This document shows positions 54,105 through 63,248 of a DNA stretch of 64,000 nucleotides, one piece after another. A program made the position numbers and the translations under genes. The DNA is from Paracoccus albus (GTDB taxonomy: Bacteria; Pseudomonadota; Alphaproteobacteria; Rhodobacterales; Rhodobacteraceae), in NCBI RefSeq assembly GCF_027913035.1, contig NZ_CP115775.1:1488001-1552000 (forward strand). Direction: 5' to 3'. The notes under the pieces were generated by a model. That model had not been told where the DNA came from. It did not search any database and saw only the letters and a list, made by a program, of their open reading frames with translations. Each line of letters opens with the position of its first letter. The first letter of the stretch is position 1.

Positions 54105-54974
54105 CTAACCCCGCAAGGGCCGCGCACCTGCGATAAGTTCGGAATATTCGTCGTAGATCGCGACAATACGATCTATCACCCGACGGATATGGGGCAGATG
54201 GCGGTCGTCATCATGCATCACCAGATATTGCCATTCGGTCAGATCCTCGATCACCTGTCCCACCCGTGCCAGAGACGGATCGCAATCACCAAGCATACAA
54301 GGCATGATCCCGATTCCCGCGCCCGCCCTGACCAATTCGTGCACCGTCGCGACCGAGCTTGCCAGAACCGCGACAGGCACGTCCTGATCATGCAGCCATT
54401 GTGCCGCCGGATGCCGCGCATTGGCCGGGTCCATCGCCACCCATTCCAGCAATTCGGGACGCGCCACGGCCCAGCTGCGATACGCAGCGAAGCCTAGCTT
54501 GCCCAATTTTCGGGTAGCAAGATTGCCGCCCTCTGCCGCGCGGTTACGAATTCCCAGATCAACCTCACGATGGGCGATATCCAGCATTGCCTCGCTGGTG
54601 ACGAAATGCAGGCGGAACGGGTCGCCGGGCTGCGACAAGGCACAGAATTTGTCAGCCAGAAAACTGGCGGTTCCGGTCCCGGCTGACAGTCTGACAACCG
54701 GTCGCGCTGCATCTGGCGCAAGCAGCGCCTCGACCGGGCGCGCCGCCGCCTGCATCCCGCGCACCTTCTGAAACAGCTCACTGCCTGCGCGCGTCAGCGC
54801 ATATCCACTTTGCGAGCGTTCAAACAAAACCTGCCCGGTCTGCTGTTCAAGCGACAGCATCCGCCGCCCCACCGTCGCCGGACTGAACCCAAGGGCGCGC
54901 GACGCAGCAGACAGACCCCCACTTTCCGCGACGTGAAAGAAAACCTGCAGATCGTCCCAGCTTATATTTTTCAT
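54105..54974 (-). CDS. LysR-family transcriptional regulator
   Basis: Regulator of 289 residues. The N-terminal winged HTH reads DDLQVFFHVAESGGLSAASRALGFSPATVGRRM, and the effector domain runs from ~90. ATG 54974 is the family start; the in-frame upstream codon at 55001 is less likely. A small gene is divergent 89 bases away, the classic LysR target arrangement, but the real target is unknown. Confidence 0.92.
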   Translation of the reverse strand: MKNISWDDLQVFFHVAESGGLSAASRALGFSPATVGRRMLSLEQQTGQVLFERSQSGYALTRAGSELFQKVRGMQAAARPVEALLAPDAARPVVRLSAGTGTASFLADKFCALSQPGDPFRLHFVTSEAMLDIAHREVDLGIRNRAAEGGNLATRKLGKLGFAAYRSWAVARPELLEWVAMDPANARHPAAQWLHDQDVPVAVLASSVATVHELVRAGAGIGIMPCMLGDCDPSLARVGQVIEDLTEWQYLVMHDDDRHLPHIRRVIDRIVAIYDEYSELIAGARPLRG

Positions 54975-55063
54975 AATTGAAAAGAGCCTTGCGAAACGCA
55001 CCCGATGAAGGGGCGGTTATCGCAGGCTATCTTATCGGTATCGAAAAAGAAAGGAGCCCGCCA

Positions 55064-55246
55064 GTGACGCCGATCTTGATACAACCAAAGTTGGACAAGA
55101 TGACCGAAGACGAGTTCTATGCCACGGGCGCTGATGCCGCCGCCATCATGCTTGCACGCTTGGGCGGGCTGCTACCCCGCCCCAAGCCAAAACAGTCTAC
55201 TTCCGGTCGCGCGGCTTTCCACGCCATGTATCCAGCCAGCCGGTAA
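55064..55246 (+). CDS. Possible small protein divergent from LysR
   Basis: GTG 55064 with AAGGAG seven bases upstream opens a 60-residue frame (begins TPILIQPKLDKMTEDEFY, includes ADAAAIMLARLGGLLPRPK). The sequence is coherent up to about residue 48; the rest overlaps the 3' end of the DUF1523 gene on the other strand by 50 bases. It could be the LysR target or a fragment of a longer lost gene. No family recognised. Confidence 0.4.
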   Translation: MTPILIQPKLDKMTEDEFYATGADAAAIMLARLGGLLPRPKPKQSTSGRAAFHAMYPASR

Positions 55247-55892
55247 AGCCTTCCCGCGCCTCGCTGAACTCTTGCCCGACGCGGTCCATCGCTGCATCTG
55301 TGCGGGCATCGACATTGTCCACAGCCGCACCGACCCGCTTCGCCGCCGGATCAATCGTGCGCTGCCGGAACTGGTTCCACATGCGCCACAGCAGGAACAA
55401 CAGCGCCCCCAGAACAATCAGGATCAGCATGGCGGGCCAGTTCAGCGGCGACACGTTAGGCCCATCCACCGGCCGCATCGAAATCGCATTCGGATAGATA
55501 GAGAACATCGGGATGCGCCAGCCATAGCCTGTCACGCTGACCCATTGCGGGTTCGCACCATCGGAACGGAAATTCGTCGCCTCGGCCTGCAGGTTCGAGC
55601 TGTCATATTTGAAATAGGGCGGCCAGATCCAGCCGGTATCCTCGTTGCGGTAGACGAAGACCTTGTTGTTGGGCCGTACCGCCTCAATAAAGCGAATATC
55701 GCGCTGACCCTGCGCGTTCTGAACCGTGCCGACATCGGCGGCGGCGTAGAACATCGAATTCGCGCCGATATCGGTCAGGCGATTATAGGTATTGGTAATG
55801 CGCAGCGTGTTCTTGCTGGGCAGCGCGTAATCCAGAAACAGGAACACGACCAGCCCCAGAAGCACGCCCAGAACGACTTTCACATAATACAT
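55197..55892 (-). CDS. DUF1523 family membrane protein
   Basis: A 231-residue membrane protein. One helix lies at ~5-24 (VKVVLGVLLGLVVFLFLDYA), then an extracytoplasmic domain of about 130 residues with TLRITNTYNRLTDI and WIWPPYFKYDSSNLQ. A second helix lies at ~155-175 (LILIVLGALLFLLW), then a charged cytoplasmic tail with amphipathic helix. This matches DUF1523, which has no known function. Last gene of the seven-gene AAA block; AAGGAG precedes ATG 55892. Confidence 0.85.
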   Translation of the reverse strand: MYYVKVVLGVLLGLVVFLFLDYALPSKNTLRITNTYNRLTDIGANSMFYAAADVGTVQNAQGQRDIRFIEAVRPNNKVFVYRNEDTGWIWPPYFKYDSSNLQAEATNFRSDGANPQWVSVTGYGWRIPMFSIYPNAISMRPVDGPNVSPLNWPAMLILIVLGALLFLLWRMWNQFRQRTIDPAAKRVGAAVDNVDARTDAAMDRVGQEFSEAREGFTGWLDTWRGKPRDRK

Positions 55893-55905
55893 CCCATGCG
55901 TCTCC

Positions 55906-56184
55906 TTACTGCACGTTCACATACCACGCGATCACACCGATCGCGATGGTGGGCAGGATAAATACAAGCCCAACCAGTCGGGCCTTCAGCGTCTTCTGAA
56001 ACCCGACCATCGAACGCCTCACGAACTCTCTTCGTTCCGGGCTATCTCCTGCACGGTCGGGATGCCGCCGGTCCCATTCATCTTCCAGGGACTCGCGCTT
56101 GGTGGATCGCAGATAGATCGAGATCAGCAGATAAAAGATCGCTTCGATCAGAAGCAGCATCACGACAAGGCGCAGCAGGACCAT
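55906..56184 (-). CDS. Small two-helix membrane protein of the AAA block
   Basis: A 92-residue protein with membrane helices at ~4-24 (LRLVVMLLLIEAIFYLLISIY) and ~68-90 (ARLVGLVFILPTIAIGVIAWYV). Between them is a highly charged loop (LEDEWDRRHPDRAGDSPERREFVRR). I recognise no named family. It starts three bases after the preceding gene's stop and ends 13 bases before DUF1523, so the three form a tight unit. Confidence 0.78.
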   Translation of the reverse strand: MVLLRLVVMLLLIEAIFYLLISIYLRSTKRESLEDEWDRRHPDRAGDSPERREFVRRSMVGFQKTLKARLVGLVFILPTIAIGVIAWYVNVQ

Positions 56185-56187
56185 GCG

Positions 56188-57630
56188 TCAATTCCCCCAG
56201 GGGCCGCGGAAGGGACTATGGGCCGGATTGTTTCGCGGATCATAGCGGAGCTGGCCCGCATTGCCCTCCGAAATCTGCGTACCTGCCTGCCTGACAGAGC
56301 CCCAGGGCCCGGAAAGCGGCGCCGATGCGGCTGCCGGTTCGTTCATGCCCGGCTCCGGCCCGAACAGCGCCTCTCGCGTGCCCTGCTTGTCAATCTGATA
56401 TTCGCGGGCAAGCTGATTGGCGATATATTCCTTCTTCGCATCGTCCCATGTCTGGTACAATTTATAGAACAAAGGCTTATGCATGATGAACAGGCTGCGC
56501 ACGTCATGGGGTGCCAGTTCTGTCAGCATCTGGTTGACCAGATCGCGCGACGGCCCCGCAGTTCCCCTGATGGCATAGAAATAGGCCGGATTGGCGCTGT
56601 CGATCACCGGCCACGCCCCGCCTTCTTCGGCATAGCGCAGCAGCGCAGACAGGCCGCGCACCTCATCGGGCAGACCGCTGCCCATCCGCGCCGCCGCGCG
56701 ACGCAGGGCCGAGCGTGTGCCATTGCCCGTGTCGATATCCAGCCGCGTGGCTGCATCCACAAGGATAAAGTCGATCTTCTGGCGCAGGATCGCCGCACCA
56801 TCAGCGCCCTTCGCGGTGATAATCGGCTCTGCCAGTGCATTACGGGCCATCCACATCGCGACAGAGTTCGTATCCTGCAACGCCATCATCTTGGCGCTGC
56901 TCAGATCGGTGTCATATTTCGGATCGGTGAAGATCGCGGGATCGGTGAAGATCATCGCTTTTTCGCGCGGGCTGCGAAACACATACACACCACCGAACAG
57001 CGAGGTCCAGAAATCGGGCACATCATATTCACCCGCATCCAGATGGATCGGGTTGCGGATCACATCGCCGGTTTCCTTGGCCTGCTCGATCATGCGCGCG
57101 ATCAGGACATCGTCATACCAGGCCTCCGGCTCGGACCGGAAGCGCTCGATCAGCGCGGTGAGGTTGTCGGCACCCGCGACATGGTTGCCGGTCGTGTCGG
57201 CGCTGATCCGGATGCGGTTGATCTGCATCAGATCGGCGGGCGCATTCACCTGCCAGACCATATCATCCATCTCGCCCACCACCGCATCACGCGCGGTCAG
57301 GCTGAACAGCTGGCTTTCATTTTCATGGATGAACTGTTTCAACAGCTCGCGCAGCACCGACAGGTCGGCATTCAGCAGCGGCGCGGTTTTCTGTTCCGTC
57401 GTCAGAAGGATGAACTGGCGATGCGCGCCTTCGGGGTTGAGGTAATCCATATCCCCGATCTCATCCCCGATCTCGGGAGAGAACCCCGCAAGGTCGATAT
57501 GAAATTCCGGCAGGGCAGTTTCCTTGCCCGTGACAAGCTTGAGAGCCCGATTGTATCGCACCACCCATGCCGGGCTGTCCACCCGGATCATGTTGCCGAA
57601 CATCAGACCTTTTTCGATGAGGCGTTTCAT
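56188..57630 (-). CDS. Unknown 480-residue protein of the AAA block
   Basis: Soluble protein of 480 residues without signal peptide or membrane helix. It begins MKRLIEKGLMFGNMIRVDSP. Notable stretches are FILLTTEQKTAPLLNADLSVL, a region with MIFTDPAIFTDPKYDTDLSSA, and a Pro/Gly/Asn-rich C-terminal tail (~430-480) ending in RGPWGN, where two GPWG motifs occur. I know similar proteins only as uncharacterised alphaproteobacterial families. AGGTGA lies before ATG 57630. It is separated from the AAA gene upstream by 221 bases holding an inverted-repeat element, so it may have its own promoter. Confidence 0.82.
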   Translation of the reverse strand: MKRLIEKGLMFGNMIRVDSPAWVVRYNRALKLVTGKETALPEFHIDLAGFSPEIGDEIGDMDYLNPEGAHRQFILLTTEQKTAPLLNADLSVLRELLKQFIHENESQLFSLTARDAVVGEMDDMVWQVNAPADLMQINRIRISADTTGNHVAGADNLTALIERFRSEPEAWYDDVLIARMIEQAKETGDVIRNPIHLDAGEYDVPDFWTSLFGGVYVFRSPREKAMIFTDPAIFTDPKYDTDLSSAKMMALQDTNSVAMWMARNALAEPIITAKGADGAAILRQKIDFILVDAATRLDIDTGNGTRSALRRAAARMGSGLPDEVRGLSALLRYAEEGGAWPVIDSANPAYFYAIRGTAGPSRDLVNQMLTELAPHDVRSLFIMHKPLFYKLYQTWDDAKKEYIANQLAREYQIDKQGTREALFGPEPGMNEPAAASAPLSGPWGSVRQAGTQISEGNAGQLRYDPRNNPAHSPFRGPWGN

Positions 57631-57667
57631 GGGGTCACCTTAGCACCAGAGAAACCGGAAGGGCAGA

Positions 57668-57810
57668 GCCGCCGGGCAGCGTCCGGCCGCGGGAGGACGC
57701 TGCCCCGGCTGATCGGCACACTTTATCGCGCATCCCCGCTGACCGACTGTTCGGCGCGACCCGGCGAAAAAGCGTCCGCCCGAGCGTGCGGCCGGACGCT
57801 GCCCGGCGGC
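57668..57810. repeat. 143-base element with perfect 23-bp terminal inverted repeats
   Basis: Positions 57668-57690 are the exact reverse complement of 57788-57810 over 23 bases (core GCCGGGCAGCGTCC). A third, internal copy of the core lies inverted at 57695-57709 with one extra C, and GCGTCCG at 57772-57778 pairs with 57793-57799. There is no coding capacity and no clear target-site duplication. It fills the only sizeable gap inside the AAA block. It looks like a MITE or a palindromic intergenic repeat; the RNA would be strongly folded. Confidence 0.75.
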
Positions 57811-57851
57811 GCTTACGCGCCTTGATTCCGGTCGGGGTCGCAGCGGCAATC

Positions 57852-59780
57852 TCACCCCTCGCCCCGATACCGCTTCTGCGCCTCGGCCATGCGTTCCATC
57901 CCGCGCACCGCCTCCTCAATCGCGGTCTCATCGCTGCTATCCGCATAGCGCCATTCGCTGTCGGCGTAGCGGTTGATCTCCTGCGCGATCATCTCGCGGG
58001 TGATGGGCTGGCGCAGGGCCTCGATCATTTCCAGCTTACGTTCGTAGGGCTGGTGCATGAAGGGTTCAGGGCTTTCGAACCACTCGTCCGGCATGTCGAA
58101 ATCCATTGATCGCGCTTTGATCGCATCTGTGATGTTCTTGATCGCGCGGCCGGTGAAGCGCTCATCCGCGACGGAAATCGCGTGCAGATAGGTGCCGAAT
58201 TCGGCCAGCGTATCCAGCGGCCCGGTTTCGGAGGTCACATCTTTCCAGACCTTGGCCAGCCCCGCCTCTTGCGGCTGGTTGTGGCGCTCCAGACTGTCGG
58301 CCACGGCGGTCTTGATCACCTGCGCCTTCATCAGATCATGTTCGCCGACCGGGATGTCGTGCCGTTTGCCCAGAAGCAGCGCGAGGATGTCGATATAGTC
58401 CCCGCGCGTCTTCGGCCCGTCGATCAGGAAGCGGGCGCCTGCCCGCTGGCGCAGCGCGTCGTCGATGGATTCGGCATAGTTGGAAAACATCCCGAAGGTC
58501 GCATTGCCGCGCACGATGGTGCTGGCGCCGGCAAAAGCCTCCATCAGCACCGCCGTGATCTCTTGCTGGCCGCTCGACGATTGCTTGTCGCCGCGCTTGC
58601 CTGCGATCTGGTCGATATCGTCGATGGTGCCGAAACCGATCACGCCGGGATCAATGACATTGTTGATAAAGGCGCGTGCATTCTGACCCGATTTGCCCTG
58701 ATAGCTGTCGACATTGTCGATGGACAGGTTGGCATAGCGGAACGGATAGCCCGCCACCGTGCAGTAATCGTTGATCAGGCCCGCCATCATCTGGATCAGC
58801 GTGGTCTTGCCGGTGCCGGGCTTACCATCGCCAAGGAAGGTATAGATGAAACCGCCAAGCTCCACGAAAGGGTTCATGCGGCGGTCGAAATCATAGGCGA
58901 CCAGCATCCGCGACAGCCGCATCATCTGATGCTTGGCAATGGCGTTGCCGACGACCTCTTCGGGTTTCTTGAAGGCCAGTTGCACGGGCTTGCCGCGTGC
59001 CTTGGTGGCGGGCGCATAGCCAGCGATCGGGAAATCATCCGCCGCCACACGCCAGCTCGCGCCGGTGAAGGCGCCGGTGCGCGGCACGGATTCCGCGCGG
59101 GCCTGAACGGCGGCGGACAGTGCTTCGGCATAGGCGATCACCGTGGCGATCAGGGTTTTGTCGTCATGGGCGCCGCGGGACAGGTTCTGATCCAGCTCCC
59201 ACAGTGCGCCTTGCAGTGCGGTCAGCGGGTTGTCGGTCAGGATTTCATCCGCCGTGATCCCCTCGACCGTTTCCGGCCCGGCATGTTCTGCAAGCAGAAA
59301 CGCTGTCGCATTGGCAAAAACCGACATCGCGGCGAGCGCCTCGACCGCAAGCAATTCGGCGAACTCACCGCGCTTCTCTGCCGCCAGTCGGCCTTCCAGA
59401 TTGGCGCGCTTCAACTCCCCCGCGCCGGAACGGGCCGAGACCTCATCCACGACCGCAAGCGAAATCGCGATGGCACGGCGCAGCGCGCGGGCGACCGTTG
59501 CCGCAGCGGGCGATGGCAGATCATCGCCGCCCACGCCTTCGATCCGGTCAATCACTTGAATGCCATCAGCCCGCTGCGTCGAACGCCCGGCCAGCCCCGG
59601 CGTCGTCGAGCGGAACCGCGATGTGCGCGGAATACCGGGCGAGCGTTCGGGCTGCTGCACGGGCGCAGTGGCCTTGCCCAGACGCGGCGCGTGGTCGAAC
59701 CCGTTCAGAAGCGACAGCGCCTGTCCGTAATGGGCGCGGATCTCGGCCTCGGGCAATTCCATTTCGTTACGAACGTCCAT
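57852..59780 (-). CDS. AAA family ATPase with large N-terminal region
   Basis: A 642-residue ATPase. Walker A is GKPGTGKTT with K325, Walker B is GTIDDIDQ with D387-D388, followed by IAGKRG as in the classical FtsH/Cdc48 clade, then GQQEITAVLMEAFAG. Sensor 1 is in TFGMFSNY and a likely arginine finger in ALRQRAGARF. The first ~300 residues are helical and unlike FtsH: no membrane helices and no protease site. The C-terminal ~110 residues are charged helices. ATG 59780 has AGAGGA upstream and overlaps the previous gene by 14 bases. It probably remodels one of the other proteins of the block. Confidence 0.88.
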   Translation of the reverse strand: MDVRNEMELPEAEIRAHYGQALSLLNGFDHAPRLGKATAPVQQPERSPGIPRTSRFRSTTPGLAGRSTQRADGIQVIDRIEGVGGDDLPSPAAATVARALRRAIAISLAVVDEVSARSGAGELKRANLEGRLAAEKRGEFAELLAVEALAAMSVFANATAFLLAEHAGPETVEGITADEILTDNPLTALQGALWELDQNLSRGAHDDKTLIATVIAYAEALSAAVQARAESVPRTGAFTGASWRVAADDFPIAGYAPATKARGKPVQLAFKKPEEVVGNAIAKHQMMRLSRMLVAYDFDRRMNPFVELGGFIYTFLGDGKPGTGKTTLIQMMAGLINDYCTVAGYPFRYANLSIDNVDSYQGKSGQNARAFINNVIDPGVIGFGTIDDIDQIAGKRGDKQSSSGQQEITAVLMEAFAGASTIVRGNATFGMFSNYAESIDDALRQRAGARFLIDGPKTRGDYIDILALLLGKRHDIPVGEHDLMKAQVIKTAVADSLERHNQPQEAGLAKVWKDVTSETGPLDTLAEFGTYLHAISVADERFTGRAIKNITDAIKARSMDFDMPDEWFESPEPFMHQPYERKLEMIEALRQPITREMIAQEINRYADSEWRYADSSDETAIEEAVRGMERMAEAQKRYRGEG

Positions 59781-60339
59781 TCGGGTCCTCTTTAATCCAC
59801 AATTCCGGGTAATCGGTGACGAAGCCGTCGGCGTCCACGGCCAGATCGGCAGCAATATCGTGACTGGATGAGGCATAATGCCAGCCAGCATCGGTCTTGC
59901 GATAGCTTTGCGGCAGGCGTTTCAGCGACCAGTCCGACGGGTCGAGCCATACCGCCGCAAGTTCCGCACTGTCCTTGCCGAGCGCGCGCAGGCGCCGCAG
60001 GGGCAAGGTGTTTGTCGCTGGGGTGAAGCCAAGATCTATATCCTGAAGCCCATGCAGATCGGGCATTTCCTCTCCGCCGATGTGCCAGTCGCCCGCTTCG
60101 TTTCGGTTGATCGACAGGCTGAGCGCCTTTTGCCCGACATTTCCCTGCACACGGGCAGAACGGGTGATCCAACGTTCATCACAACTGATGTGATAGCTGA
60201 GATGGGCGGGGCCGGCATTGTCCAGCCACACGGCGACGCCTTCCAGACCGCAGCGGCCATCCTGCTGCCAGATGCGGCAGGCATCATGACCAGAACGGTC
60301 CAGCCTGCGCCACAGGATCAGGGGATCTCCACGCGCCAT
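59767..60339 (-). CDS. Putative glycolipid-binding domain protein
   Basis: A 190-residue soluble protein resembling the putative glycolipid-binding family (PF06475 type). It has WRRLDRSGHDACRIW at the start, GLEGVAVWLDNAGPAHLSYHISCDERWITRSARV in the first half, a repeated beta pattern, and a final YPELW segment. The assignment is by pattern memory and moderate. It is coupled on both sides: one-base overlap with the upstream gene and 14-base overlap with the AAA gene. Possible role: recognising an envelope lipid or sugar for the AAA system. Confidence 0.65.
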   Translation of the reverse strand: MARGDPLILWRRLDRSGHDACRIWQQDGRCGLEGVAVWLDNAGPAHLSYHISCDERWITRSARVQGNVGQKALSLSINRNEAGDWHIGGEEMPDLHGLQDIDLGFTPATNTLPLRRLRALGKDSAELAAVWLDPSDWSLKRLPQSYRKTDAGWHYASSSHDIAADLAVDADGFVTDYPELWIKEDPNGRS

Positions 60340-61475
60340 CAGCGATAGGCCGTCACGCGGCCATCGGGCAGCGGCACATATTTGCGGATATTGCGGAATC
60401 CCTTGGGATCAATCTCTGCCAGCGACTGATAGGGACGCGCGGGCAGCACTAATGCCCGCTGCACGGCACTTGCGCCCTGCCCGTTTCCGCCCAGACCCAG
60501 CTTGTCCAGCTTGAATATCTGGCGCTCGGTCACGCCAAATAACCCGGTCGATTCCATAATGGCACGTTCTGCCTGCAAATCCTCGACCGTAAGTGCCACG
60601 GCCCAATCCTCGCCAGCAGGGGCGCGCGCATTGTCCAGCACCTCGCGGATCGGACCTTCCTGCGTGGTGAACTGCTGGGAATAGATCGGCCCCATCAGCA
60701 ACCGGCGCAGGCGGTAAGGGTGCAGCTTGTCGAAATCCTTGTCGAACCCCTGCGCGATGGTCAGCAATTGCAGCGTCGTCACCGACTGCGCCATCAGATG
60801 GGCCTGCACTTCGGGCCAGCGGCGGCTGTCCTCGGCCAAGGGCTTGCGGCCGCTGTCGTCGCAATCCATCAGATAGATCACCGGCAGGTTAAGCTGGCTG
60901 TCATAAACGGCCCAATGGATCAGCCAGCGACGGCGATTGCCTGCATTTGACAGCCAATAGGCCTGTGGGCTCATCTGCGGCCAGAACAAGCCACCCTTCG
61001 CCAGAGCCTCATGGTAGAGGCGCTGCGACATCGCGTATTGCAGACGTGTCGGGATCACCAGATCACCGACGATCTGGCGGATCATATCGTCCCTGATCTG
61101 CTTGGTATCGGCGGTCCGGGCAAGCTGTTCATTCGCCTGTGCTGCATCCGCGGCCATCTGGGCGATTTCCGACCAGATCGGATAGCCGGATTCATGGACG
61201 TCGATGGTCAGGAACTTCCGCAGCGGGCCATCGACTCGGCCAGAAACAAGATATTTCATCGACAACGCATCGGCAGAGCGCAGCATCGCCGTCAGATAGG
61301 ACCCGATCACCTCGACCTCTGTCTGGGTGAACAGCCCGTCGCGGACGGTTTCCGACAGCACCGCAGGCAGGGTGGATGCAATCAGCCGCAGCTTCTCGAA
61401 ATAGCGCCGCGCAATCAGATCGTCCTCGATCTGGCGGTGATCGGCGTCAAGATTGCCGGTACGATCCTTGCTCAT
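60339..61475 (-). CDS. Unknown 378-residue protein of the AAA block
   Basis: Soluble protein of 378 residues from ATG 61475 (AGGG upstream; the open frame to 61490 starts with TTG). It is largely helical, without signal peptide or membrane helix. Segments of note are WLIHWAVYDSQLNLPVIYLMDCDDSG, a conserved-looking WPEVQAHLMAQSV, and DPKGFRNIRKYVPLPDGRV at the C-terminus. No family recognised. It is one base into the glycolipid-binding-like gene and 108 bases after the coiled-coil gene. Confidence 0.8.
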   Translation of the reverse strand: MSKDRTGNLDADHRQIEDDLIARRYFEKLRLIASTLPAVLSETVRDGLFTQTEVEVIGSYLTAMLRSADALSMKYLVSGRVDGPLRKFLTIDVHESGYPIWSEIAQMAADAAQANEQLARTADTKQIRDDMIRQIVGDLVIPTRLQYAMSQRLYHEALAKGGLFWPQMSPQAYWLSNAGNRRRWLIHWAVYDSQLNLPVIYLMDCDDSGRKPLAEDSRRWPEVQAHLMAQSVTTLQLLTIAQGFDKDFDKLHPYRLRRLLMGPIYSQQFTTQEGPIREVLDNARAPAGEDWAVALTVEDLQAERAIMESTGLFGVTERQIFKLDKLGLGGNGQGASAVQRALVLPARPYQSLAEIDPKGFRNIRKYVPLPDGRVTAYR

Positions 61476-61583
61476 ATCTGGCCCTTGCAACTCTGGACCG
61501 GCGCAGCCGTGAAGGGCCGCGACGGTCTTTGTTCTTACTGCTGACGCGCAGCATCAAAAGCGTTTCACCGGCGTGAAGCCCGC

Positions 61584-62657
61584 TCAGTTTCCGTAAAGGT
61601 TGCTGTCGTGCTTCTTGACGATCTCGCTGAAGCGGCGGGCAAAGCGTTCATCCGCCTTGGCCTTTTCTTCCAGCACCTTGCGGGCAAAGACCATATGATC
61701 GCCGTGGGCTTCAAGCATATCGGCCATGCGGTCATTCGTGGCCGTGCCGATAGCGGCCATCTGGGCCTGCGCCTCCTGGTCCGTCTTCACGCCGATCTCG
61801 TTGATGCGGTGCGCGACATCCTGCTGCTGCGCCGTCTTCAGCGATTTGGTCAGCGCGTCATACAGAACCACGCGCTGCTTGGTATCCGTCTGCAGCTTGT
61901 TGATCAGCACCATCTGCGTCGCGGCCTGATTCTGCAGCGAATCGACCCAGGTCTTGCCAGCCTCGATATAGCGCTCCAGCGTCTGCGACTTAGCGAGTGC
62001 GACCTGTTCTTCCTGAACAAGGGCATTGTGCTCCTTGTTCGCATTTGCCAGCTCCGTTTCCAGACGCGTGCGGTCGCTGGGATCGGTCGTGCTGGCAACC
62101 TTGTTTTCCAACTCGATCAGTTTCGGGTCCATGGCAGCAATCTTGGCACGCAGATCTTCCAGCGTATCCACGGTCGCCTCACGCTCATCCAGCGTGCCGG
62201 TCAGGTTGGATTCGACCTGATCCTTCTGCTTGTTCAGTTCGTCCAACTGGCCCTGAAGCAGCCGCGTAATCACGTCAGATTTCGAAATCAGGTCCTGCAG
62301 CTTGTCGTCGATCGAGGCCCCGCGCAGACGTTCCTGCCGCATAGATTCGGCCTTGCCCTTGGCGAAGATGCCAACAAAGCTTTCCCACCCGGTCTTGGAG
62401 CGCATCTCCTCGAAATCTTTCGAGAACCCTGCCGTCACATCGTCCAGCCCCATGATGAGCTCGGCGATATTGGCATTCATCGCCTCTGTATGGGCATGAA
62501 CATCGGCCAGCGTTGCATTCTCAATGTCGATACCGGGCTCTGCCACCTCGGCGCGCGCGGCGGCGCGATCAAGCTGGCTGGTCACCTCCGCCATCTTCTG
62601 CTGCGTCAGCACGATCTGCTTCTGCGTGTCGGTCATTTGCTGGTCGAGCGATGCCAT
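61584..62657 (-). CDS. Long coiled-coil protein heading the AAA block
   Basis: A 357-residue protein, almost entirely helical and rich in Gln, Glu, Lys and Ala, with heptad patterns at ~1-50, ~130-230 and ~280-350. There is no signal peptide, membrane helix or catalytic motif. A conserved-looking block is GWESFVGIFAKGKAESMRQERL (~90-111). Its length and helicity recall PspA- or TelA-type envelope-stress proteins, but I see no signature of either. First gene in transcription order, with AGG upstream of ATG 62657. It could be the substrate or adaptor of the AAA ATPase. Confidence 0.8.
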   Translation of the reverse strand: MASLDQQMTDTQKQIVLTQQKMAEVTSQLDRAAARAEVAEPGIDIENATLADVHAHTEAMNANIAELIMGLDDVTAGFSKDFEEMRSKTGWESFVGIFAKGKAESMRQERLRGASIDDKLQDLISKSDVITRLLQGQLDELNKQKDQVESNLTGTLDEREATVDTLEDLRAKIAAMDPKLIELENKVASTTDPSDRTRLETELANANKEHNALVQEEQVALAKSQTLERYIEAGKTWVDSLQNQAATQMVLINKLQTDTKQRVVLYDALTKSLKTAQQQDVAHRINEIGVKTDQEAQAQMAAIGTATNDRMADMLEAHGDHMVFARKVLEEKAKADERFARRFSEIVKKHDSNLYGN

Positions 62658-62729: not shown

Positions 62730-63248
62730 TCAAAGGGCGGCGGCGGGCGGCGTCAGATCGCCCCATTTCAACCCGCGCAACACCAGATCGTCCAGCCCCT
62801 CCCTGCCGGTGATGATGGCGAAGTCGCCGCTGGTTTCCAGCACCATCAGTTGCACATCGGACAGACCCGCCGCCCCCGCGCCACGCAGCTTGGCGGCCAG
62901 ATCGTCGCGGGTCAGCCGCGCACGGCGCAGATTTTCGGATGACAGCGTGCCGGCATGGACCAGCACCAGCGGTTCATTGTCGATCACCATCGAGAGCTTC
63001 GGCCAGTGCGTGCGCGTCCAGGTCAGCGCGCCCCGCCCCGCGATCAGCGCGATCAGCCCGTAGATGCCGATCCAGAAACTGTCGCCCGTCGCCGTCATGA
63101 TCGTCGCCAGCACCGAACCCGTGGCGACGGTCAGCGCGAAATCGAACCCGCTGATCTTGGAAAATGTGCGCAACCCGTTCGCCCGAAGCAACGCGATGAT
63201 CAGCAAAATGGCAATGAATGTTCTTAAAGCCGTTTCTATGAATGGCAT
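62730..63248 (-). CDS. YetF/DUF421 family membrane protein
   Basis: A 172-residue protein with about three N-terminal helices (FIETALRTFIAILLIIALLRANG, then FDFALTVATGSVLATI and a third). A cytoplasmic DUF421 domain follows, with DNEPLVLVHAGTLSSENLRRARLTRDDLAAKLR, the family's core. ATG 63248 has GAGG upstream; the frame is open to 63428 but the extra residues are not family-like. Function unknown. It lies 72 bases upstream of the AAA block in the same orientation and could share its promoter. Confidence 0.88.
   Translation of the reverse strand: MPFIETALRTFIAILLIIALLRANGLRTFSKISGFDFALTVATGSVLATIMTATGDSFWIGIYGLIALIAGRGALTWTRTHWPKLSMVIDNEPLVLVHAGTLSSENLRRARLTRDDLAAKLRGAGAAGLSDVQLMVLETSGDFAIITGREGLDDLVLRGLKWGDLTPPAAAL

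Follow-up and report, generated by a model that had tools for sequence, protein, structure and literature searches.

This study concerns a block of seven minus-strand genes, built around an AAA ATPase, in a 64,000-nucleotide stretch of the Paracoccus albus genome (contig NZ_CP115775.1, positions 1,488,001 to 1,552,000; the whole of this stretch is referred to below as the window). Four of the genes, encoding a long coiled-coil protein (CC), a 378-residue protein, the AAA ATPase and a DUF6638 protein, form a core, termed the quartet, whose members are retained or lost together. In 121 genomes the quartet is present or absent as a whole; its order is fixed, the junctions between its genes are slots of variable and biased content, slot genes frequently overlap the ATPase gene by 4 nt, and the motor motifs of the ATPase are invariant. 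Together, the core and its exchangeable coupled genes resemble a defence-type sensor/effector chassis, probably of the abortive-infection type, a reading to which we give nearly an even chance.

Occurrence and conservation of the quartet

When 121 genomes drawn from the order were searched with the four proteins (E at most 1e-10 for the AAA ATPase, 1e-5 for CC and the 378-residue protein, and 1e-3 for DUF6638), each protein was found in the identical 70 genomes, and at these thresholds none of the four genes was found in the remaining 51. The loci compared numbered 71, comprising the window and 70 fetched stretches (69 from these 70 genomes, and one, locus L062, from genome G329 of another family). 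The order CC, 378-residue protein, AAA ATPase, DUF6638, followed by a two-helix membrane protein (TM2) and a DUF1523 protein, was seen in all 71 loci, the sole exception being that TM2 was not found in L062. The earlier note on this DNA had treated all seven genes as one compact unit and had proposed co-occurrence in the same order across Rhodobacterales as a check. At the locus this co-occurrence is seen for six of the seven genes, and in the strict sense for four; it fails for the remaining gene, which encodes a glycolipid-binding-like protein (GLB) and is present in 3 of the 71 loci. The locus is composed of three layers, namely the quartet, a separable membrane pair (TM2 and DUF1523), and accessory genes.

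Elsewhere in the class the ATPase was found in one of 285 other genomes, and a broader profile of the 378-residue protein reached 26 of 398 genomes of the phylum, of which 12 lie outside the family. Plasmid and genome collections yield further copies of these four genes, again in this order, from Sinorhizobium, Shinella, R. leguminosarum, two Vibrio species, Halomonas, Stappia/Roseibium and Aestuariispira. Of the 551 related stretches found by a genome-contig search, 80 were retained. In the wider set, which has 85 loci, L138, L144, L152, L155, L175 and L179 lie at contig ends or beside runs of N, and L131 stops before DUF1523.

CC is the best-conserved protein of the quartet, with a median identity to the window of 73% over the 71 loci (42% in L062), followed by the ATPase (62%), DUF6638 (52%) and the 378-residue protein (50%), with DUF1523 at 44% and TM2 at 31%. 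Within the core, the pairwise identities of one protein track those of another (Spearman 0.65-0.80), and their correlation with DUF1523 identity is lower (0.36-0.51). Among named organisms, Paracoccus supplies the best relatives of CC and of the 378-residue protein. One internal stop each was seen in the ATPase gene of genome G048 and in the DUF6638 genes of G007 and G080, which are candidate decaying copies or assembly errors.

Exchangeable genes in the junctions

Junctions were counted over 157 distinct loci (165 minus eight second copies of other fetched loci). Of 154 distinct loci, 116 have more than 240 bp in the junction between the ATPase and DUF6638 genes (slot 2) and 73 have more than 600 bp; lengths above 240 bp were also found in 59 of 153 junctions between the CC and 378-residue protein genes and in 14 of 155 between the latter and the ATPase gene. 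The open reading frames (ORFs) in the slots fall into 138 clusters, of which 27 occur in two or more distinct loci; all 27 lie wholly in sense, as do 89 of the 112 remaining ORFs. These counts bear on the strongest rival explanation, in which the quartet has a non-defence role, such as maintenance of the envelope or of protein quality. Its long junctions would then be no more than safe places where small defence and membrane genes insert and are stably expressed, much as defence genes lie embedded in other operons. Were the site passive, genes should be taken up in both orientations, so the sense-only clusters count against it.

In slot 2, sense ORFs of 63 clusters are spread over 104 distinct loci, and in 45 of these loci (22 clusters) the first ORF overlaps the stop of the ATPase gene by exactly 4 nt, as against 71 of 564 co-directional gene pairs in the flanks, a control counted before duplicate loci were removed. 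When multi-locus clusters alone are considered, the overlap is found in 30 of 76 loci, over seven clusters. The G+C content of slot-2 genes is below that of the ATPase gene (0.526 vs 0.601; Wilcoxon p 1.5e-12), with the lower value in the slot gene in 72 of 89 comparisons. Among pairs of loci whose ATPases are 80-98.5% identical, 137 share a slot-2 cluster, 423 differ and 38 have none. Judged from these sequences, slot-2 genes are exchanged quickly between relatives and are apparently translationally coupled to the ATPase gene. The exact overlap over 22 unrelated clusters is a second feature that passive landing does not lead one to expect. In Sinorhizobium meliloti pSymB, an IS4-family transposase gene (ISRm16; L206:11283-12446) lies in this junction beside a gene with an endonuclease domain.

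Protein families were scanned in 108 of the 242 slot ORFs from all junctions, taking up to three ORFs per cluster of at least six, one per smaller cluster, and sense singletons of at least 85 aa. A transmembrane (TM) segment was predicted in 71 of the 108 and in 17 of 108 size-matched flank ORFs, and two or more segments were predicted in 55 and 8, respectively; this membrane-protein bias also counts against passive landing. The Pfam matches include Mrr_cat/Mrr_N (L106; Mrr 1.3e-32), AbiJ_NTD4 (L083; 3.7e-10), RNase_T with BRCT (L059), DUF3825 (L080), putAbiC (L070; 1.1e-10), DUF559 (three members), Fic (one) and Phd/YefM (one), and a DEDDh-type exonuclease is among the slot proteins. The Fic-type gene (L245; Fic/SoFic 5.8e-20) lies between the genes for the 378-residue protein and the ATPase, the place occupied by GLB in the window. 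The earlier note had offered defence as an alternative role, and the Mrr, AbiJ, AbiC and Fic types among the accessory genes of relatives lend that suggestion support.

The commonest slot-2 cluster (L173:12021-12515; 28 distinct loci) encodes a small membrane protein, with one to four predicted TM segments in the six members listed and a C-terminal '..K.W.KE.W' in the members listed. A 19-member cluster (L070, L058, L079, L104, L043 and relatives) has in common an N-terminal membrane motif like 'PNEIGDT.AG', and in its L070 member the putAbiC domain (residues 224-296) follows this motif.

The core proteins

The ATPase matches PF00004 over residues 324-457 of the reference used, with 48.0 bits against a cut-off of 21.2. 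Walker A K330, Y365-Q366-G367 (which we take to be the pore loop), N439 (presumably the sensor-1 Asn) and R449/R451/R455 (presumably the arginines of the second region of homology, SRH) do not vary across the 155 aligned rows, of which 151 are distinct. The Walker B acids are D392-D393 in all 155 rows, an Asp in place of Glu at the second position; the usual Walker B of classical AAA proteins is Asp-Glu. The assignment of this protein to the classical clade in the earlier note is upheld, the Asp-Asp pair being a variant and not grounds for exclusion. The conserved motifs suggest that the protein is a real motor, and its ATP hydrolysis may be slow given the Asp-Asp Walker B. MIT was not matched in the ATPase (Pfam, E at most 1).

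CC has sub-threshold Pfam matches and no family at threshold. At E up to 10 the window CC has no match to Snf7, PspA or TelA, and Snf7 and PspA are likewise absent from the 25 of 55 families listed for 13 CC members. The 378-residue protein has no Pfam match; its AlphaFold 2 model (pLDDT 93) is helical towards the N terminus and rich in beta structure towards the C terminus, and no convincing PDB relative was found in the searches run. Nor did the DUF6638 model (pLDDT 84.7) match a solved structure in those searches, and DUF6638 is not mentioned in the full-text literature searched, which leaves out preprints and most subscription papers. Beyond Pfam, the NCBIfam, PADLOC and PHROGs matches of the seven window proteins comprise the AAA domain, coiled-coil-type matches of CC and a weak partial PHROG for DUF1523. 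Below E 0.01 the PADLOC matches of the core are TRIP13 (9.2e-5) and IetA (about 0.006), both on the AAA domain.

The membrane pair

DUF1523 was found in 117 of the 121 genomes of the order, 47 of which are without the quartet, and four genomes have two copies. From 51 stand-alone copies 29 were fetched (25 from quartet-less genomes and four second copies in quartet genomes), and a TM2 relative adjoins DUF1523 in 21 of these 29 loci. In a DUF1523 tree of 100 rows, made up of these 29 copies and the 71 quartet loci, stand-alone and quartet-linked copies intermix by lineage, with 13 changes by parsimony and at least seven forced by the starred branches; the three stand-alone copies from the genus of the window nest among its four quartet-linked ones in a seven-row clade (support 100/99). 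Flank genes are common to stand-alone and quartet loci on both sides in 17 of the 29 cases (not always with one and the same quartet locus for the two sides), on one side in 10, and on neither in two. The simplest reading of this pattern is that the quartet has been repeatedly lost (or gained) as one block beside a resident TM2-DUF1523 pair. In Sinorhizobium a DUF2333 protein follows the quartet instead of the pair, and in Vibrio mfd follows it; none of the Vibrio and Rhizobiaceae loci in the 85-locus set showed the pair. By predicted topology, the DUF1523 domain between its two TM segments is probably periplasmic.

The Paracoccus albus locus

All seven ORFs of the window are open, intact and collinear (Table 1), in the order and of the sizes that the earlier note had given. 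The overlaps between starts and stops that it described are real, at 1 nt (378-residue protein/GLB) and 14 nt (GLB/AAA ATPase), and few. Gaps of 3 nt (DUF6638-TM2) and 13 nt (TM2-DUF1523) separate the last genes, and wider spacers of 108 and 221 nt lie between the CC and 378-residue protein genes and between the ATPase and DUF6638 genes. Among the seven proteins Pfam names only GLB, the ATPase core, DUF6638 and DUF1523. Hydropathy gives two TM segments each in TM2 and DUF1523, one borderline stretch in the ATPase, and none in CC, the 378-residue protein, GLB or DUF6638.

Table 1. Features of the locus in the window (coordinates are those of the window).
Feature	Position	Strand	Evidence
CC, long helical/coiled-coil protein, 357 aa, first gene	61584..62657	-	open ORF
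378-residue protein, no family, confident alpha+beta model	60339..61475	-	open ORF
GLB, PF06475 glycolipid-binding-like, 190 aa, in the junction between the 378-residue protein and AAA genes	59767..60339	-	Pfam 2.6e-46
AAA ATPase, 642 aa, ATG at 59780	57852..59780	-	PF00004 2.3e-12
Slot 2, AAA-DUF6638 junction, 221-bp spacer, no recognisable gene	57631..57851	-	
DUF6638 protein, 480 aa	56188..57630	-	Pfam DUF6638 2.1e-169
TM2, two-helix membrane protein, 92 aa, first of the separable pair	55906..56184	-	hydropathy
DUF1523 protein, 231 aa, two TM segments	55197..55892	-	PF07509 1.4e-66

GLB looks like an accessory gene of this genome, as it lies in a junction that takes up accessory genes, and the proposal that a lipid-binding fold is part of the machine is not borne out. 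In locus L043, from another member of the genus, GLB is accompanied by a gene of the AbiC-type cluster. The slot-2 spacer of the window holds one 71-aa ORF, to which no relative was found in the compared loci, and a perfect 23-bp inverted repeat (57668-57690 and 57788-57810) that is very stable as RNA (fold z -4.08). The 18-bp core of the repeat arm has these two exact copies in the genome and four more matches with one or two mismatches. It is possible that the repeat is an attenuator, a terminator or the scar of a lost slot gene.

The upstream neighbour (62730-63248) is a YetF-type DUF421 protein by Pfam, and the downstream neighbour (54105-55001) looks from its sequence like a LysR-type regulator. 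In the other 70 stretches neither gene was found, and they therefore seem to lie outside the unit.

Interpretation and alternative explanations

A defence chassis is favoured because a fixed core, exchangeable coupled genes and slot contents of membrane, nuclease, Fic and Abi types make up the architecture of sensor-effector immunity. The four predicted-soluble core proteins would form a machine together with one or more exchangeable accessory genes in fixed junctions. The core would sense intrusion or cell damage, and the AAA ring would then remodel or release a partner, the most evident candidate for this substrate being the conserved coiled-coil assembly; this action would license the slot protein to damage membrane or nucleic acid. 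The Paracoccus copy may act via GLB or via TM2-DUF1523, or it may be an effector-less form.

Several observations weigh against this interpretation. The locus is often syntenic, unlike typical defence islands, and few defence families are found in its flanks. No AAA relative was found in phage records or viral contigs, and the plasmid matches of the ATPase lie on replicons of 0.9-4.6 Mb typed as non-mobilizable. It is because of this syntenic, non-island setting and the lack of AAA relatives in phages and viral contigs, which are unusual for defence, that confidence is held to about even. In addition, no core protein matches a known defence family in PADLOC beyond its AAA domain, one metagenome-assembled genome contig with full flanks (L130) carries the ATPase alone among the 85 loci, and many loci, including the window and Vibrio L205, are without a slot-2 gene. 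The G+C and 4-nt comparisons rest on naive ORF starts. Many slot ORFs have no family match, and some single ones may be non-genes. PADLOC families matched number 30 for slot ORFs (25 of them listed) and four for the flank control, a contrast that counts families and not proteins and is inflated by one protein that accounts for ten of the 30. Counted per protein, 8 of 20 slot ORFs, picked mostly by length from the 108 in two runs, were matched, four of them weakly or partially.

Some of the same observations are what the passive-hotspot explanation would lead one to expect, including the mixed slot content, the many loci without a slot gene, the frequent synteny of a locus that is not island-like, and the scarcity of defence families in its flanks. 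Set against the orientation, overlap and membrane bias of the slot ORFs given above, these make passive landing an unlikely explanation, though the strongest of the rivals.

An improbable alternative is an envelope-stress or membrane-remodelling machine, in which the substrate of the ATPase would be a coiled-coil assembly associated with the membrane, and its membrane partners would be TM2-DUF1523 (or DUF2333 in Sinorhizobium) and small slot proteins. The occurrence of DUF1523 as the last gene of the block in all 71 loci, DUF2333 next to the quartet in Sinorhizobium, the predominance of membrane proteins among slot ORFs, and a pore loop and SRH of the classical type (with roles assigned as above) are all consistent with such a machine. 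However, the pair is separable, it was found at none of the Vibrio or Rhizobiaceae loci of the 85-locus set, CC matches neither Snf7 nor PspA among the families listed, and slot genes of the nuclease, Fic and restriction types are at odds with such a role. Envelope remodelling was the role favoured by the first reading of this DNA, and it gains no direct support here, though many slot proteins are membrane proteins. It is very improbable that the locus is a distant branch of TelA/toxic-anion (Ter-type) stress systems with CC as a TelA-like protein. A TelA-like layout of CC (a W-E..G block, then an ID.. helix) was seen by eye, as a manual impression and not a tool result, but HHalign gave 0.1%, or 1.6% with a broader TelA set (reversed controls, 0.3% and 0.9%; profiles shallow, Neff about 2 to 2.6), and the genome has its own TelA elsewhere (G000:C1:1918777-1919772; PF05816 3.4e-107).

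A bolder form of the defence-chassis reading can be put forward tentatively, namely that the locus represents a new class of bacterial immune system in which an unfoldase-type AAA ring, CC, the 378-residue protein and DUF6638 would be the sensor and activator, and the effector would be a separate cassette gene, exchanged at a translationally coupled junction immediately after the ATPase gene. Such a class would be widespread in Rhodobacteraceae, present in Rhizobiaceae and scattered in Gammaproteobacteria, and would have gone unnoticed because the chassis is chromosomal, largely vertical and outside defence islands. No description of the operon was found in the full-text literature searched (preprints and most subscription papers lie outside its coverage). 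If a defence role is correct, an unnamed immune or stress chassis is present in more than half of the sampled genomes (70 of 121), from a group important in ocean and soil, and its slots supply a ready catalogue of candidate effectors, mostly membrane proteins. With separate genes in slots, the hypothesis lends itself to direct testing, and structures of the 378-residue protein and DUF6638 could show new structural biology under either reading.

Comparison with known systems

TelA (PF05816) resembles CC in being a long helical protein of similar size, with a layout alike by eye alone; it differs in that CC has no profile-profile support as its homologue. In ESCRT-III/Vps4 and PspA systems, as here, a classical AAA ATPase with an aromatic pore loop stands beside a highly conserved helical protein, but CC has no Snf7 or PspA match among the families listed and the N-terminal region of the ATPase has no MIT match. 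To our knowledge, nuclease-bearing slots are foreign to this family. PspA/Snf7-AAA neighbourhoods have been described (PMC11237479).

In BREX, auxiliary effectors are described beside a conserved multi-gene core (PMC12839542), and BREX and restriction loci are like the present locus in having auxiliary genes beside such a core. They differ in that no methyltransferase, PglZ or BrxC family is among the core matches here (Pfam, PADLOC), where the core is made up of unnamed families and a classical AAA ATPase.

In Lamassu, an anti-phage and anti-plasmid system (LmuA/LmuB/LmuC), a conserved LmuB is combined with varied LmuA effectors, among which are Mrr and further nucleases (PMC10586767). A single Rad50/SMC-like protein, LmuB, serves there, whereas here a classical AAA ATPase and a separate coiled-coil protein are found; CC matches the PADLOC LmuB only at E 0.032, and the ATPase of the operon is of the AAA type and not an SMC/Rad50-like LmuB. 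Furthermore, Lamassu effectors are N-terminal domains of one subunit, whereas the candidate effectors here are separate genes of the operon. By analogy, what the two would have in common is a conserved ATPase and coiled-coil part combined with exchangeable effectors, the effectors of the present locus being candidates.

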